Positions 17,163 to 23,275 of a stretch of DNA of 64,000 bases are shown here, in pieces; position 1 is the first letter of the stretch, and the number at the start of each line of letters is the position of its first letter. This DNA comes from Blastococcus haudaquaticus (GTDB lineage: Bacteria > Actinomycetota > Actinomycetes > Mycobacteriales > Geodermatophilaceae), in the NCBI RefSeq assembly GCF_900230285.1, contig NZ_OCNK01000001.1, positions 496,001 through 560,000 of the forward strand. The letters are read 5' to 3'. The notes beneath the pieces were generated by a model. It searched no databases. It saw only the letters and a program-made list of their open reading frames with translations, and had not been told where the DNA came from. The position numbers and the translations under genes are program-made.

Positions 17163-17849
17163 GTGAACCGCACGGACCGGATGCATGCCGTCTCCGAGGA
17201 GCTCCGCCGCGCGGGCAGCCGCGGGCGCACTGCCCAGCGACTCGCCGAGTGGCTGGAGGTCTCACCGCGGACGATCAAGCGGGACGTCTCCGCACTCCAG
17301 CAGGCCGGCGTTCCGATCTGGGCGACCGGTGGACCGGGCGGCGGTTACGTCCTCGACGCCGTTGCGACGCTCCCGCCGGTGAACCTGACCCCGGCCCAGG
17401 CGGTGGCGGTCGCCGTGGCCCTGGCCGGAGCCCCGGACGCCCCGTTCGCCGTGGACGGCCGTGCGGCACTCGAGAAGATCCTGGACGTGCTGGGCCCCGG
17501 CGCTCGGGGCGACGCCGAACGGCTCGGTTCCCGCGTGTGGGTGCGGGAGCCGCGGCACCGGCGGTCCCCTGCGGCCGCCGTCGTCGAGGAGGCGCTGCTG
17601 CGCCGCCGCGTCCTGGCCATCCGTTACCGCGGAGGATCCGGCGAGGTGACGCGGCGTCGGGTGGAACCGGTCTTCCTCGCCCGGCCCGGGACCCACTGGC
17701 AGCTGGCCGCCTGGTGCCGCGAGCGTCAGGCGCCGCGCTGGTTCCGCTGGGACCGGATCGAGGCCGCGGACCTCACCACCGAGACCGCGCCGGACCACGA
17801 CCCGGCCATCTTCGGCACGCCGCCCGAGGACGCGCGTGCCGTCAGGTGA
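17163..17849 (+). CDS. YafY-type transcriptional regulator (HTH + WYL)
   Basis: 228 residues, GTG start. An HTH_11/DeoR-like winged helix occupies 1-60 (AQRLAEWLEVSPRTIKRDVSALQQAGVPIWATGGPGGGY), followed by an effector-binding WYL domain (about 135-215, AIRYRGGSGEVTRRRVEPVFLARPGTHWQLAAWCRERQ). The usual W-Y-L triplet is 'WQLAAW' here. WYL domains bind small ligands or nucleic acid and regulate adjacent genes. A CACGAT hexamer ends six bases before the GTG. It is the last normal-GC gene before the low-GC island. Confidence 0.85.
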   Translation: MNRTDRMHAVSEELRRAGSRGRTAQRLAEWLEVSPRTIKRDVSALQQAGVPIWATGGPGGGYVLDAVATLPPVNLTPAQAVAVAVALAGAPDAPFAVDGRAALEKILDVLGPGARGDAERLGSRVWVREPRHRRSPAAAVVEEALLRRRVLAIRYRGGSGEVTRRRVEPVFLARPGTHWQLAAWCRERQAPRWFRWDRIEAADLTTETAPDHDPAIFGTPPEDARAVR

Positions 17850-17869
17850 CGTCATGGAGCGGCCTCTCG

Positions 17870-20560
17870 CGGAGGATCGCGCCAGTCTCCGAGGCTTGGA
17901 AGGCGACAGAAGTCCGGTGCCCACGGAAGGGTACCGGGCGGCTCGCCCTTGCGAAGAAAGGGTGACATAGGCATACCTGTGCAAGCAGTTTGAACCATGC
18001 CAAGGTTTTCGCGAACTAAGAGCCAGGCACTTCGCTCACTAGAGGCAACTTCTCCCCGACCGCTTCAGCGGCCAAGTCGTCGTCCGCAATCTCCAGGAAT
18101 GGCCGGAACGCTGGGTGGATGCGATAGCGCGCCGGGCTGCCTCGCTCCGCGCTAAGGCGTCGAGCCAATGCCCTATGCTTCTTTTCCGACGTCTCATCAC
18201 TAAAATACTCGTAAATGTCGTCTCCGACTTCCAACCCGAGGAACGAAGAGCGAAGGAGCGTGCCGGTTAGCTTCTCGAGGTCCGAGGCTTCGTCCCTACG
18301 CAACACGGCGGCGAGTTGATCGGACGACAGCGTCGCCGTTCCGCCAGCGAAGTCGAACAACAGGTCGGCAAGCCCTGCCTCGGGGTCACTCTCTACCACC
18401 AACGCTTCGAATGCGAACTGCGAGTATGCCCGCTCACCCCCCACAACGTCGGCCTCCTCCACCCGGGAGTGGCGACTATTGGTCGCCTCGAGGAGTGCGG
18501 CATTACACAGATAGACAAGGTCTCGAGGGCGAGGAAGAACCCGCCAGAGCATGTACTCGCGCGCCGCCATTCCCCGAACCGTTGGACTAAAAAGGCGTTT
18601 CCACAGCAAAGGTCCGTCTGCGTCTGTGACCGCTGCGTAGCGATCCTCAATCACACGTGACAGGAGTTGCCGGTCAGGCCATCGGATTTGCAGCACATCC
18701 ATCTTGTCGGGTTCGCGCGCGTGCCGCAAAACCATACTGAAGATGTCCGCTCGCAGGAACACGGTGAGAGTCACATTTACTTTCGCGCGCCAAGCGTTCT
18801 CGCGAGAGAAGTCGCGGGCTACATGCCCAACGGCCGACAAGAGTCCGAAGATAACTCGAGAAAGACGCTCGTAATCAGCCCCCCGCTCCCACGCTTTGTC
18901 GAGATTGTCAATCAGTAGAGCAACTCTCTCCCTGGAGCCAAGCGCCTCACCGATGAGCCGCCGCATGTCTCGGAGCGTCGATGTATGCAACTGTTCATTT
19001 AGAAAATTCCTGACATTGCCAACACCGTCGGGCATAGATGGAAGTCCCGCGAGCAAATCCTGAACTACCCCTTCAAGGCGGACTGCCATGTCTTGCTCTA
19101 GCCCCACGCCCAGGTCTTCTAGGTAGGCCCGCAGCGCGTCCATCGCAGACCCGGAAGCGATCCCGGCAGGTTTGCCTTCCGCTTCCCTCACCGCCGCGGC
19201 CGCGATCTCACAGTGAAGTAGGTACTCCCACAGACCGTTCAGGAAATAATCTGCTTCACCCCTTTCTGGCAGCATATCCAGAACTTCGAGCAAGCTCTCG
19301 AGCTCATAACCGGTTGGCTTTATAACGGTCACGAGGTTTCGCTTGTCCCTGCCCAGTTCGGCAGCCGCCTGGAGCATTGTCGCCGTCTTGCCCGTACCCT
19401 TCCGGCCAACGAAGATCCCTGTGCCGCCCTGCCTGCGGATGACCCGCGCGTACTCGGCTGTGGGAACGAAGTAATCATTGAGCTCGTCGGCTTCATACTC
19501 CGCGACATATTCCCCCAACGCGAGCGGGAGACCGAGCGCCTCGTGCAGTCTCGCCGGAGTGGAACCCGCCTGAGTAGGGAGATCGTCCAACCAGGTATTC
19601 AACCTGTTCTGGACATCTCTTACTGACGCAAATTTGTAGAGCAAGTCCTGATAGTCGATCGGCGGGTCGAATGTATCCTCTGCGAGCATCAGCAGCGGAC
19701 GACCGAGACCGGCTACCATGCCGGCCACCAAGCTCGCCCGAGCATTGTGTATAGCGGACCTCGTCCGCTGCAGGCCCACCATGTACACGAGCGAGGCCGA
19801 GGAGCGGTGAATCATCTCCGCGTAGTAGCTAAGGGGAGCGTAACCCCTCTCATCTTCATCCGAACGCAGAACAGCCAGGTTTTTCCGCTTACTTAGCTCA
19901 CGATCAATTGTTCTAGGTGCATCCCCTCGCAACCGAGTAGGAAAGTAGAACAACGTTCGTGGATCCACGCCAAATCGGAAGTCCTTCTGAAGGTGGTCCC
20001 AGAGGAGCTCTCGACCATCTAGGTCCGGGCGTTCCTTCGAGTAGCCCGCTGCGATTAGTTCCGAGTCGCCCTGATAATTGAAGTAGCCAATGGAACTAAG
20101 TATGCCGAAGGATTTCCAGTTCTTAACGGCATTCTCGTCGGTGCCATCCAAAAGAAGCCAGACGCGCTTTCTTTTTGCGATCGCGTATCCGACCTCGTAC
20201 AAGACGTTTTGATTCAACGAGCCGATCTCGGCCACGACTACTTCGGCTGTTTCAATGGCCTGTTGAATCTCGCCGATCATGACTCGCCCACCAACCTGCA
20301 GATCCTGCCAGGTGCGAGTCATTAGCCGAGTGCGGGAACCGATCAGCCCAGCACCAGCCCGGATAGTCTCAGCTTGAAGGCTAGGACTTCCCGGATAGGC
20401 AAAGAAGACGGACTTGGCAGCTGCGGTCGCCATGCCGTCATCCTTCAGCAAAAGGAGGGCTCTGTCATGAGCAGACTCAGGATTGCCATGTCAGCGCACC
20501 CCGCCCGTGCTACTGCTGCTCAGAGTCCGGGTTTTGGTCCCCGCGATACGTCAACCGGCA
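17870..20560. other. Low-GC, foreign-looking one-gene island
   Basis: Base composition falls to roughly 50-60% GC by eye, with AT-rich runs and rare codons, while both flanks exceed 70%. The segment holds only the 805-codon ATPase gene plus short spacers. I found no integrase, transposase, tRNA or clear direct repeat at its ends (around 17.87-18.0 and 20.45-20.56 kb), so the route of entry is not visible. Boundaries are approximate. Confidence 0.65.
18016..20433 (-). CDS. Large P-loop ATPase with N-terminal deoxyribosyltransferase/TIR-like domains
   Basis: 805 residues from the ATG at 20433, which has GAAGGA seven bases upstream; a TTG 18 bp further up is weaker. Residues 8-100 resemble the nucleoside-2-deoxyribosyltransferase/TIR-like fold (VFFAYPGS..., IETAEVVVAEIG, NQNVLYEVGYAIAKRKRVWLLLDG). 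Residues about 200-255 repeat the pattern (MIHRSSASLVYMVG...AGMVAGLGRPLLMLAED) in weaker form. The ATPase follows: Walker A GRKGTGKT (343-350), Walker B VALLIDNLDKAW (504-515), a sensor-like FLRADIF (559-565) and RPRDLVYLCNAAL (635-647). I recall such proteins as the 'P-loop ATPase, Sll1717' family; the architecture resembles STAND-type immune proteins. There is no partner gene; it follows guaA on the same strand by 131 bp. A defence role is inference. Confidence 0.75.
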   Translation of the reverse strand: MATAAAKSVFFAYPGSPSLQAETIRAGAGLIGSRTRLMTRTWQDLQVGGRVMIGEIQQAIETAEVVVAEIGSLNQNVLYEVGYAIAKRKRVWLLLDGTDENAVKNWKSFGILSSIGYFNYQGDSELIAAGYSKERPDLDGRELLWDHLQKDFRFGVDPRTLFYFPTRLRGDAPRTIDRELSKRKNLAVLRSDEDERGYAPLSYYAEMIHRSSASLVYMVGLQRTRSAIHNARASLVAGMVAGLGRPLLMLAEDTFDPPIDYQDLLYKFASVRDVQNRLNTWLDDLPTQAGSTPARLHEALGLPLALGEYVAEYEADELNDYFVPTAEYARVIRRQGGTGIFVGRKGTGKTATMLQAAAELGRDKRNLVTVIKPTGYELESLLEVLDMLPERGEADYFLNGLWEYLLHCEIAAAAVREAEGKPAGIASGSAMDALRAYLEDLGVGLEQDMAVRLEGVVQDLLAGLPSMPDGVGNVRNFLNEQLHTSTLRDMRRLIGEALGSRERVALLIDNLDKAWERGADYERLSRVIFGLLSAVGHVARDFSRENAWRAKVNVTLTVFLRADIFSMVLRHAREPDKMDVLQIRWPDRQLLSRVIEDRYAAVTDADGPLLWKRLFSPTVRGMAAREYMLWRVLPRPRDLVYLCNAALLEATNSRHSRVEEADVVGGERAYSQFAFEALVVESDPEAGLADLLFDFAGGTATLSSDQLAAVLRRDEASDLEKLTGTLLRSSFLGLEVGDDIYEYFSDETSEKKHRALARRLSAERGSPARYRIHPAFRPFLEIADDDLAAEAVGEKLPLVSEVPGS

Positions 20561-20564
20561 TCGC

Positions 20565-22127
20565 TCACTCCCACTCGATCGTTCCCGGCGGCTTGCTGGT
20601 GACGTCGAGGGTGACCCGGTTGACCTCGTGCACCTCGTTCGTGATGCGCGTGGAGATCCTCGCCAGCACGTCGTAGGGCAGCCGCGTCCAGTCGGCGGTC
20701 ATGGCGTCCTCGCTGGACACCGGCCGCAGCACGATCGGGTGCCCGTAGGTCCGCCCGTCGCCCTGCACGCCGACCGACCGGACGTCGGCGAGCAGCACGA
20801 CGGGGCACTGCCAGATCTCGCGGTCCAGCTTCGCCGCGGTCAGCTCGGCCCGGACGATCGCGTCGGCCTTGCGCAGGATGTCCAGCCGCTCCTGGGTCAC
20901 CTCGCCGACGATGCGGATGCCGAGGCCAGGTCCGGGGAACGGCTGGCGCCACACCATCGACTCGGGCAGGCCGAGCTGCAGCCCCACCTCGCGGACCTCG
21001 TCCTTGAACAGCGTCCGCAGCGGCTCGACCAGCGCGAACTGCAGGTCCTCGGGGAGCCCGCCGACGTTGTGGTGGCTCTTGATGTTCGCCGTCCCCGTAC
21101 CGCCACCGGACTCGACGACGTCGGGGTAGAGCGTGCCCTGCACGAGGAAGTCGACGGTGTCGCCGTGCTCCTTGGCGTCGCCGACGACGTCGAGTGCGGC
21201 CTGCTCGAACACCCGGATGAACTCCCGGCCGATGATCTTCCGCTTCTCCTCGGGGTCGGAGACCCCGGCGAGCGCGCCCAGGAACTGCTCCCGGGCGTCG
21301 ACGACCCGCAGGTCCACTCCGGTGACCGCGACGAAGTCGCGCTCGATCTGCTCGGTCTCGCCCTCGCGCATCAGCCCGTGGTCGACGTAGACGCAGGTGA
21401 GGCGGTCACCGATCGCCCGCTGCACCAGCGCGGCGGCGACGGCGGAGTCGACCCCGCCGGACAGCGCGCACAGCGCCCGTCCCTCGCCGATCTGCTCGCG
21501 GATCCGCTCCACCTGCTCCTCGACGACGTTGGCCATCGTCCAGGTGGGCTCGAGACCGGCGATGTCGAACAGGAAGTGCTCGAGGACCGTCTGCCCGTGG
21601 GCGGTGTGCCGGACCTCGGGGTGGAACTGCACGCCGGCGAGCCTGCGGTCGACGTCCTCGAACGCGGCCACCGGCGCGCCGGTGGACGTCGCGGTGACGG
21701 TGAACCCGGGGGGCGCCTCGCTGACGGCGTCCCCGTGGCTCATCCACACGTTCTGCTCGATCGGGAGGGAGCCGAACAGCCGGCCCTCGGTGGTGACGGT
21801 CAGGGGCGTGCCGCCGTACTCGCGGTCGCCGGTGTGCGCGACGGAGCCGCCGAGGCTCTGCGCCATGGCCTGGAAGCCGTAGCAGATGCCGAAGGCCGGG
21901 ACCCCGGACTCGAAGAGCGTGGGGTCCACCTGCGGGGCGCCGGGCGCGTAGACGCTCGACGGCCCACCGGAGAGCACGATCGCCGCGGGCTTGCGGGCGA
22001 CGATCTCCTCGGCCGGGACGTCGGAGGCGACGATCTCGGAGTAGACGCCGGCCTCGCGGATCCGCCGGGCGATCAGCTGGGCGTACTGCGCTCCGAAGTC
22101 GACGACGAGGACGGTCGGGAAGTCCAT
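20565..22127 (-). CDS. guaA: GMP synthase (glutamine-hydrolysing)
   Basis: 520 residues. It amidates XMP to GMP using glutamine and ATP. The N-terminal class-I amidotransferase has Cys82 ([10 protein letters not shown]) and the His/Glu pair in QFHPEV. The ATP-pyrophosphatase domain carries the P-loop SGGVDSAV near residue 222, and the dimerisation domain ends with the family C-terminus (KPPGTIEWE). Its ATG overlaps the last base of the guaB3 stop, so guaB-guaB3-guaA form one operon for guanine nucleotides. The low-GC ATPase gene lies 131 bp downstream on the same strand. Confidence 0.98.
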
Positions 22128-23275
22128 CAGTCCGCCCGACCGCCGATGGCTCCGCCGAGTACCAGGTCCACCCGCTGGAACTCCTTGAGATCGCGGTAGC
22201 CGGTCTTGGCCATCGTCCGGGCGAGCGCGCCGAAGAGGTTGGTGCGCCCGTCGGAGGTGTCCGCCGGGCCGAGCAGCACCTGCTCCAGCGTCGCGACCGG
22301 GCTGATCGGCGCGGACGTGCCACCGCGCGGCAGGCGCGGGTGTGCGGCGACGGAGTCCCACCAGATGCCCCCGGCCGGCGCCTCCGCGGCGATGCGCAGC
22401 GGCTCCCCCAGCTGGACGGCGTCGGCACCGCAGGCCAGCGCCCGCGCGATGGCGCCGCTGGTCTCGATGCGGCCGTTGGCGATGACGTGCACGTACCGGC
22501 CGCCGGTCTCGTCGAGGTAGTCGCGGCGGGCGGCTGCGGCGTCGGCGATGGCACTGGCCAGCGGCACCCGGATGCCCAGGACGTCGTCGCTGGTGGAGAA
22601 GCTGTCCGCACCCACGCCGACGATGACGCCGGCCGCGCCGGTCCGCATGAGGTGCAGCGCCGTCGTGTAGTTCGCCGCCCCGCCGACGATCACGGGGACG
22701 TCGAGGTCGGCGATGAACTGCTTGAGGTTCAGGGCATCGCCCTGCGTCGTCACGTGCTCGGCCGAGACGATCGTGCCCTGGATGACCAGCAGGTCGACCC
22801 CGGCCTTCAGCGCCGCCGGGGCGAGCTGCTCGGTGTGCTGCGGGGACACCCGCACCGCCGTCGTCGCCCCGGCGTCGCGCATCTCGCGGATGCGCTCGGC
22901 GATCAGCTCCGGCTTCACCGGCTCGCAGTAGACGTCCTGGAGCAGGGCCAGCGGCGGCGCTCCCTCGCCCGCGGCGTCGCGGAGCTTGCGGAAGACCGGC
23001 TCGGGGTCCGCGTAGCGGGTCCACAGGCCTTCGGCGTTGAGGACGCCCAGGCCGCCGGCCCGACCCACGGCGATCGCCGTCGCCGGGCTGACCACGGCGT
23101 CGGACGGGCTGGTGACCAGCGGGATGCCGAAGCGGAAGGCGTCGATCTGCCAGGCCGTCGAGACGTCGTCGACGTCGCGGGTGCGCCGGGACGGGACGAT
23201 CGAGACCTCGTCGAGGTCGTAGCCCCGGCGGGCGAACCTGTTGAGACCGATCTCGACGGTGTCGCGTGCGCTCAT
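22127..23275 (-). CDS. guaB3: GuaB3-type IMP dehydrogenase/GMP reductase-related protein
   Basis: 382 residues, an IMPDH-like TIM barrel without CBS domains, of the actinobacterial GuaB3 group ([19 protein letters not shown] at the N-terminus). In true IMPDH the active-site loop reads GxGSxCxTR; here residues 220-232 are [13 protein letters not shown], with no catalytic Cys. The C-terminal nucleotide-binding part ([24 protein letters not shown]) is intact. M. tuberculosis GuaB3 likewise, as I recall, lacks the Cys and is dispensable, whereas cyanobacterial GuaB3 has been reported as GMP reductase. It lies one base after guaB and overlaps guaA. The reaction, if any, is uncertain. Confidence 0.9.

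Follow-up and report, generated by a model that had tools for sequence, protein, structure and literature searches.

What does an isolated, AT-rich gene do among the housekeeping genes of Blastococcus haudaquaticus? The stretch analysed, hereafter the window, covers 64,000 nucleotides (NCBI RefSeq assembly GCF_900230285.1, contig NZ_OCNK01000001.1, positions 496,001 to 560,000). The gene lies in it on the minus strand, at 18016..20433, and encodes 805 residues in which a nucleoside deoxyribosyltransferase (NDT)/DNPH1-like domain and a Glu-less TIR-like domain precede a P-loop ATPase of the Sll1717 family. We propose that the product is probably a single-gene immune protein, spread horizontally and acting by abortive infection; its activity, substrate, trigger and role in defence are deduced. 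The proposal builds on a three-part architecture, on the conservation of Glu80 and of the ATPase motifs, on the grouping of fused relatives in one clade and on mobility, all read from sequence comparison or fold prediction.

The open reading frame (ORF), taken from the window's ORF list and its translation, is intact from an ATG at 20433. A candidate ribosome-binding site read from the sequence (AAGGA, 20441..20445, minus strand) stands 7 nt 5' of this ATG, and an alternative TTG start at 20451 would give 811 aa. The 805-residue protein and the motifs announced by the original prediction, which was silent on the strand, were all recovered: NQNVLYEVGYA (residues 74-84, 20182..20214), which contains the catalytic-type Glu80; the P-loop GRKGTGKT (residues 343-350, 19384..19407); the Walker B-type segment VALLIDNLDKAW (residues 504-515, 18889..18924); and RPRDL (residues 635-639). 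All are on the minus strand, as are the domains described below. The RPRD part (residues 635-638, 18520..18531) may provide sensor-II-type arginines.

The three-part plan is supported by both fold prediction and alignment. Domain 1 (residues 5-138, 20020..20421) is predicted to be catalytic and to adopt a Rossmannoid fold of the DNPH1/MilB/TIR type, its best fold matches being DNPH1 and MilB, the latter solved with cytidine monophosphate (CMP). The NxNVLYEVGYA segment had been ascribed to deoxyribosyltransferase/TIR-like folds; structure prediction, which might have returned no such fold, placed domain 1 in that class. The class is recognised by a Rossmannoid fold and a Glu in an ExG helix: the fold is predicted, and Glu80 is present in 12 of 12 rows of a first alignment (A1) and in the 17 of 17 rows that cover the position in a second one (A2, 19 rows, 17 of which have letters across the N-terminal domains). 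Asn76, Val77, Gly82 and Gly49 are invariant in the same 17 rows, where position 69 is always Asp or Glu; Tyr13 and Trp42 are found in 16 of 16 rows of A2. The motif reads N-x-N-V-x-[YF]-E-x-G, with the first Asn replaced by Ser in two rows. Family models respond weakly to this region. On residues 1-300, PF05014 (nucleoside 2-deoxyribosyltransferase) matched at 58-100 with 20.0 bits, below its gathering cut-off of 28.8, and it matched at the corresponding place in all seven relatives' N-termini scanned, above the cut-off only in L080 (31.4 bits). PF10137 (CAP12/Pycsar TIR) gave a weak sub-cut-off match at the same place in the query and in five of these seven relatives. A search by sequence for relatives of solved structure reached a best E-value of 0.06, and Foldseek alone, run on the model of both domains, placed mixed folds at the top.

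What might such a domain cleave? According to the accessible text of PMC13174449, TIR domains act on nicotinamide adenine dinucleotide (NAD+) and must oligomerise for the binding site; in the accessible parts of PMC9503650 and PMC7159879, TIR and DrHyd domains function in conflict systems, either as NADase effectors or as makers of signals, and are also found as iSTAND N-termini. NAD+ is our first-choice substrate on two grounds, the resemblance of the N-x-N-V-x-[YF]-E motif to that of TIR-like members and the weak sub-cut-off PF10137 matches; if the protein is indeed an immune one, we lean towards NAD+ rather than a (deoxy)nucleotide. The latter substrates are kept in view because of the DNPH1 fold match. 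An immune protein whose domain 1 cleaves (deoxy)nucleotides or nucleic-acid bases instead, and thereby starves or damages phage DNA synthesis, is a possible if doubtful alternative. It agrees with the two best fold matches, DNPH1 being a 2'-deoxynucleoside 5'-phosphate N-hydrolase, but the full motif and the PF10137 matches point elsewhere, and the Asp that we take to be DNPH1's catalytic acid has no counterpart that we could see in domain 1. Deoxyribosyltransferase domains in Abi-type fusions have also been proposed to act on DNA, a point in its favour found in the accessible part of PMC3710099.

A weaker repeat of the motif segment had been placed at residues 200-255. A real second domain of TIR-like fold is found there, with wider limits (about residues 156-289, 19567..19968), but it has no catalytic-type Glu and does not qualify as a second enzyme: position 236, which we matched to Glu80, is never Glu in A2. 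Arg/Lys232, Gly238, Gly242 and Asp260 are kept in 17 of 17 rows. From alignment and model, domain 2 appears to be a Glu-less TIR-like partner of domain 1. The protein could be a pseudosymmetric built-in heterodimer, in which an active NDT/DNPH1-like domain and its Glu-less TIR-like twin are fired by an ORC/TnsC-like, non-STAND ATPase on phage DNA or protein. A single polypeptide would then provide the paired arrangement for which two copies are usually required in TIR and NDT enzymes. In this complete form the idea is speculative and rather unlikely; if true, it would define a new class of single-gene immune protein present in at least seven phyla.

The ATPase core (residues 306-780, 18094..19518) matches NCBIfam NF047389 (P-loop ATPase, Sll1717 family) with 296.9 bits for a cut-off of 75, and with 292 bits in the genome search, which bears out the family name given in the original prediction. 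Residues G343, G346, G348, K349, D509, L511, D512, R561, R635, P636 and R637 are present in 19 of 19 rows of A2. The protein had also been called a STAND/AAA-like ATPase. The STAND part of this name needs correction: Pfam nSTAND5 (14.5 bits against 34) and NACHT (11.8 against 26.7) remain below their cut-offs, and the predicted fold, which resembles ORC/Cdc6, TnsC, RdrA and Avs, is nearest to the ORC/TnsC/RdrA type. No Pfam repeat (TPR, WD40), of the sort that forms the C-terminal sensor of STAND proteins, was matched, and the model has about 100 residues beyond the ATPase. Its secondary structure delimits a small C-terminal domain (about residues 686-780, 18094..18378) that may be winged-helix-like. 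To judge from the model, the ATPase is probably of a kind that often assembles. The same observations could be read the other way round, with the ATPase as effector, for example on DNA like ORC/TnsC, and with domain 1 making, or domain 2 binding, a nucleotide signal. Several facts would suit a signal-making or sensing protein of this sort: the nearest ATPase folds are ORC/Cdc6 and TnsC, domain 2 keeps Arg/Lys232 and Asp260 in all 17 rows without the Glu, and unfused ATPase cores are common (of the 397 genomes of the order 30 have family matches at E 1e-10, as do 11 of the 396 of the phylum, and few matches are fused). We nevertheless consider it unlikely, since a catalytic-type Glu that no row lacks speaks for a function of domain 1 beyond binding.

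Under the abortive-infection proposal, the C-terminal ORC/RdrA-like ATPase would be both sensor and switch, and would recognise something made in phage infection. It would then assemble in an ATP-dependent manner, and assembly would join the N-terminal domains. Domain 1, with Glu80 as nucleophile, would cleave the N-glycosidic bond of a nucleotide, and domain 2, having the fold without the Glu, would most probably serve as a built-in partner completing or gating the active site of domain 1. Nucleotide cleavage would arrest growth before phage are made. Sll1717 ATPases occur in many bacterial genomes, and the fused clade, with its invariant catalytic-type Glu, gives the family a testable predicted activity; it also connects the DNPH1/TIR class of base-cleaving enzymes with an initiator-type ATPase akin in fold to RdrA, TnsC and ORC.

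The protein was then compared with known systems. PADLOC-DB 2.0.0 contains no credible match to it (best E-value 0.004); if the proposal is true, a one-gene immune system escapes that database, here amid housekeeping genes and outside a defence island. NF047389 corresponds to the same ATPase core and its model spans the core only. DS-41 (NCBIfam NF053860, DS41_1_antiphage; DefensePredictor), the closest model whose name denotes an antiphage protein, has the ATPase part in common with the query (E 4e-11), but with 42.5 bits against a cut-off of 370 the query is not a member, and the DS41 model, of 448 positions, starts near the ATPase, which would leave no room for the two N-terminal domains. 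From its name, NF053860 presumably stands for the DS-41 system that the accessible text of PMC13092281 names among validated systems. Swarozyc (DUF4062) and TIR-STAND proteins likewise join a TIR-like Glu domain to other domains, and in eukaryotic members the partner is a NACHT ATPase (accessible text of PMC13174449). They differ from the query in domain family and in ATPase, and the tandem N-terminus belongs to the query. Retron-Eco1 also has a deoxyribosyltransferase-like effector, which presumably cleaves NAD+; there it is a separate protein that works with a reverse transcriptase and multicopy single-stranded DNA (msDNA). Its place in a defence system is described in the accessible part of PMC12405507. 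Type II (Eco1-like) retrons have an adjacent reverse transcriptase and non-coding RNA; by the ORF list the query adjoins WYL and guaA genes, no search aimed at either retron component having been made. RdrA of RADAR has a similar ATPase fold and pairs with a separate deaminase; no RdrA match was obtained in PADLOC, in which the presence of an RdrA model was left unchecked. DNPH1 (RCL) and MilB share the fold of domain 1 but are single-domain enzymes. The general kind, an effector joined to a signalling ATPase, is known, and the present arrangement is a variant of it. In the accessible text of the literature searched, with subscription papers and outside preprints beyond its scope, no description of such a fusion was found, nor any paper on the function of Sll1717 ATPases.

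How did the gene arrive at this locus? The inserted stretch (17850..20564) lies between a WYL-type regulator on the left (17163..17849, plus strand, named after the original prediction) and guaA on the right (20565..22130, minus strand, start approximate), both outside the proposed system. The gap between these neighbours is 2.7 kb here, against about 107 bp in G006 and about 23 bp in G014 (measured between alignment ends), the two same-genus genomes whose WYL matches are of 85% and 88%. The GC content of the gene is 0.581, and 0.648 at third codon positions (GC3); in five window genes, guaA and the WYL gene included, these values are 0.705-0.762 and 0.895-0.977, and none of 52 flank windows of the size of the gene is as AT-rich. 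The contrast in GC and GC3 and the two empty sites agree with the one-gene island of lower GC that had been described between the WYL regulator and guaA. A search of the ends of the inserted stretch for repeats gave none, no tRNA gene was found within the 64-kb window, and the ORF list contains no mobility gene beside the window copy. A guaA match is present in 15 of 16 same-genus genomes. A cargo slot or hotspot on the guaA side was considered for the genus and left no sign, because GC is ordinary over 1-1.5 kb behind guaA (0.68-0.79 per 250 bp) in the other 14 same-genus loci.

The distribution of the gene is patchy. Full-length matches were found in 1 of 16 genus, 2 of 112 family and 4 of 397 sampled order genomes, and the phylum sample (n=396) yielded G000 and a single partial match, which lies at the end of a contig; the order and phylum scans scored at most two candidates per genome, so that copies may have been missed. 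The other matches of these four scans are short or limited to the core. In species genomes, one scan found 11 loci, distributed over Actinomycetota, Gemmatimonadota, Poribacteria and Stahlbacteria, and one relative (L004) is that of Blastococcus xanthinilyticus. Among plasmids, 16 records matched, 13 of them over at least 80% of the query; full-length plasmid copies come from Actinomycetota, Pseudomonadota, Cyanobacteriota and Spirochaetota, and core-only matches occur in other records, one from Bacillota among them. In 21 of 22 loci the AT content of the gene exceeds that of its flanks, the mean difference being 9 points and the exception L079; these flanks extend to about 10-12 kb at most and are shorter in L007, L009 and L011. 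Because of the empty sites, the patchy distribution and the base composition, horizontal mobility of the gene is supported. A vertically inherited gene linked to guaA is ruled out by the empty sites, by the distribution, and by the relatives' loci, none of the 21 having a guaA or WYL match at E 1e-10. A chromosomal protein of stress response, DNA repair or nucleotide-pool control without phage role would be consistent with the DNPH1-like fold and with a window copy among housekeeping genes, but the gene shows the pattern of an accessory rather than a household gene because of its rarity in the genus, its empty sites, its plasmid copies and its low GC, and we judge such a role quite improbable.

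Fused full-length relatives form one clade, which extends over seven phyla and over chromosomes and plasmids. In a tree of 49 ATPase cores, 21 fused rows (a broken Planococcus row counted among them) fall on one side of a branch with support of 95/96, recovered in 96% of bootstrap trees and requiring one change; on the other side are 23 unfused rows, 4 N-terminally extended rows and 1 C-terminally extended row. This tree, which has long branches elsewhere and a root for drawing only, omits 6 of 33 core rows (L099, L119, L123, L126, L133, L134), unfetched matches and the fragments L011 and L075. The full protein had no match in viral_contigs and phages; two unannotated Klebsiella phage records weakly match the Planococcus ATPase core.

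The gene could also be selfish or toxin-like maintenance cargo of mobile elements. Relaxase, integrase or transposase genes are found near plasmid copies, the gene behind the Gemmatimonadota copy encodes a transposase, and a phage integrase is the adjacent gene in 3 of 20 unfused ATPase loci examined (L152, L158, L159). We saw, on the other hand, no paired antitoxin-like gene, and the window copy has neither a mobility gene beside it nor a flanking repeat; we give this explanation very little credit.

Two plasmid relatives depart from the common plan. The Planococcus (Bacillota) copy is decayed (L083:8900-9582), with N-terminal remnants, the Glu motif included, outside the ATPase frame; its core matches 217 plasmid records, mostly from Enterobacteriaceae. 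A Pantoea relative (L084:10034-12073) consists of the ATPase core and a long C-terminal extension with VFDAKNY, which may be PD-(D/E)XK-like; Pfam showed no match of that kind.

The antiphage role put forward in the original prediction was confronted with gene neighbourhoods. A defence-type gene is close by in 7 of 22 loci (6 if a same-genus pair counts once), by a loose standard. L075 has a TIR_2 gene and a flanking DUF4062 gene bearing sub-cut-off AAA, nSTAND1 and TPR matches, and L079 an OLD-like ATPase-TOPRIM gene. In L010 there are a PLD-SNF2 helicase and a type IIG restriction-modification gene, in L009 HsdR at one ORF's distance, and in L001 a Schlafen-type helicase without PADLOC match together with, at a distance of about 8 kb, a DpdE-like SNF2 gene. 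The same-genus pair L096 and L097 has a PLD-ResIII-DUF3427 helicase, which we assume to be of defence type. Other relatives have transposase, integrase, relaxase, toxin-antitoxin or Abi-type genes as neighbours. No defence gene was noted around the window copy, L002-L006, L008 and L011, where no gene-by-gene scan was made. The surroundings of 11 relatives contain 133 ORFs of 120 aa or more, of which 131 were compared with PADLOC; the families listed include HsdR, type IIG, DpdE-like and PLD-SNF2. In a control of 120 ORFs from 8 of the 11 control regions fetched, small and from one phylum, those listed include models of GajB (UvrD helicase) and RTasHel, each with two members, and none of the defence-type genes seen near relatives; the families listed are 25 of 51 and 25 of 102, and the numbers are too small for a rate. 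The antiphage role fits the neighbourhoods of some relatives, but the enrichment in defence neighbours rests on few loci, and the window copy lies, by the ORF list, in no visible defence island but among housekeeping genes.

Some neighbours deserve mention for themselves. In L096 (8248-8790) and L097 (8225-8800), the relative stands between the gene of an 8xMP-family membrane protein (PF24838) and the PLD-ResIII-DUF3427 helicase. A TROVE-domain gene (L001:12469-14097) is directly behind the Frankiaceae relative, on the opposite strand.

Sll1717 members found in the order and phylum of the query are mostly unfused, with open frames mostly of about 480-660 aa. Of 20 unfused loci examined, 19 have a core whose GC content is below that of the locus. 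In these 20 loci, with three genes taken on each side, no conserved partner was seen, the recurring neighbours being the integrase of three loci mentioned above and an unidentified gene pair (L159, L161). A split NDT partner beside unfused ATPases was sought by a motif scan of the window and the fetched loci (with 1.5 kb flanks for most unfused loci), in which the Glu motif was confined to fused genes and their broken remains; the pattern overlooked L076 and L078, where Val precedes Tyr and the alignment shows the motif, and similar partners would escape it too. Four members (L108-L111, from G634, G763, G757 and G624) make up a separate Sll1717 clade in one family. Their N-terminus is extended by about 120 residues or more and their C-terminal part has a glycine-rich repeated pattern, a plan reminiscent of effector-associated-domain systems.
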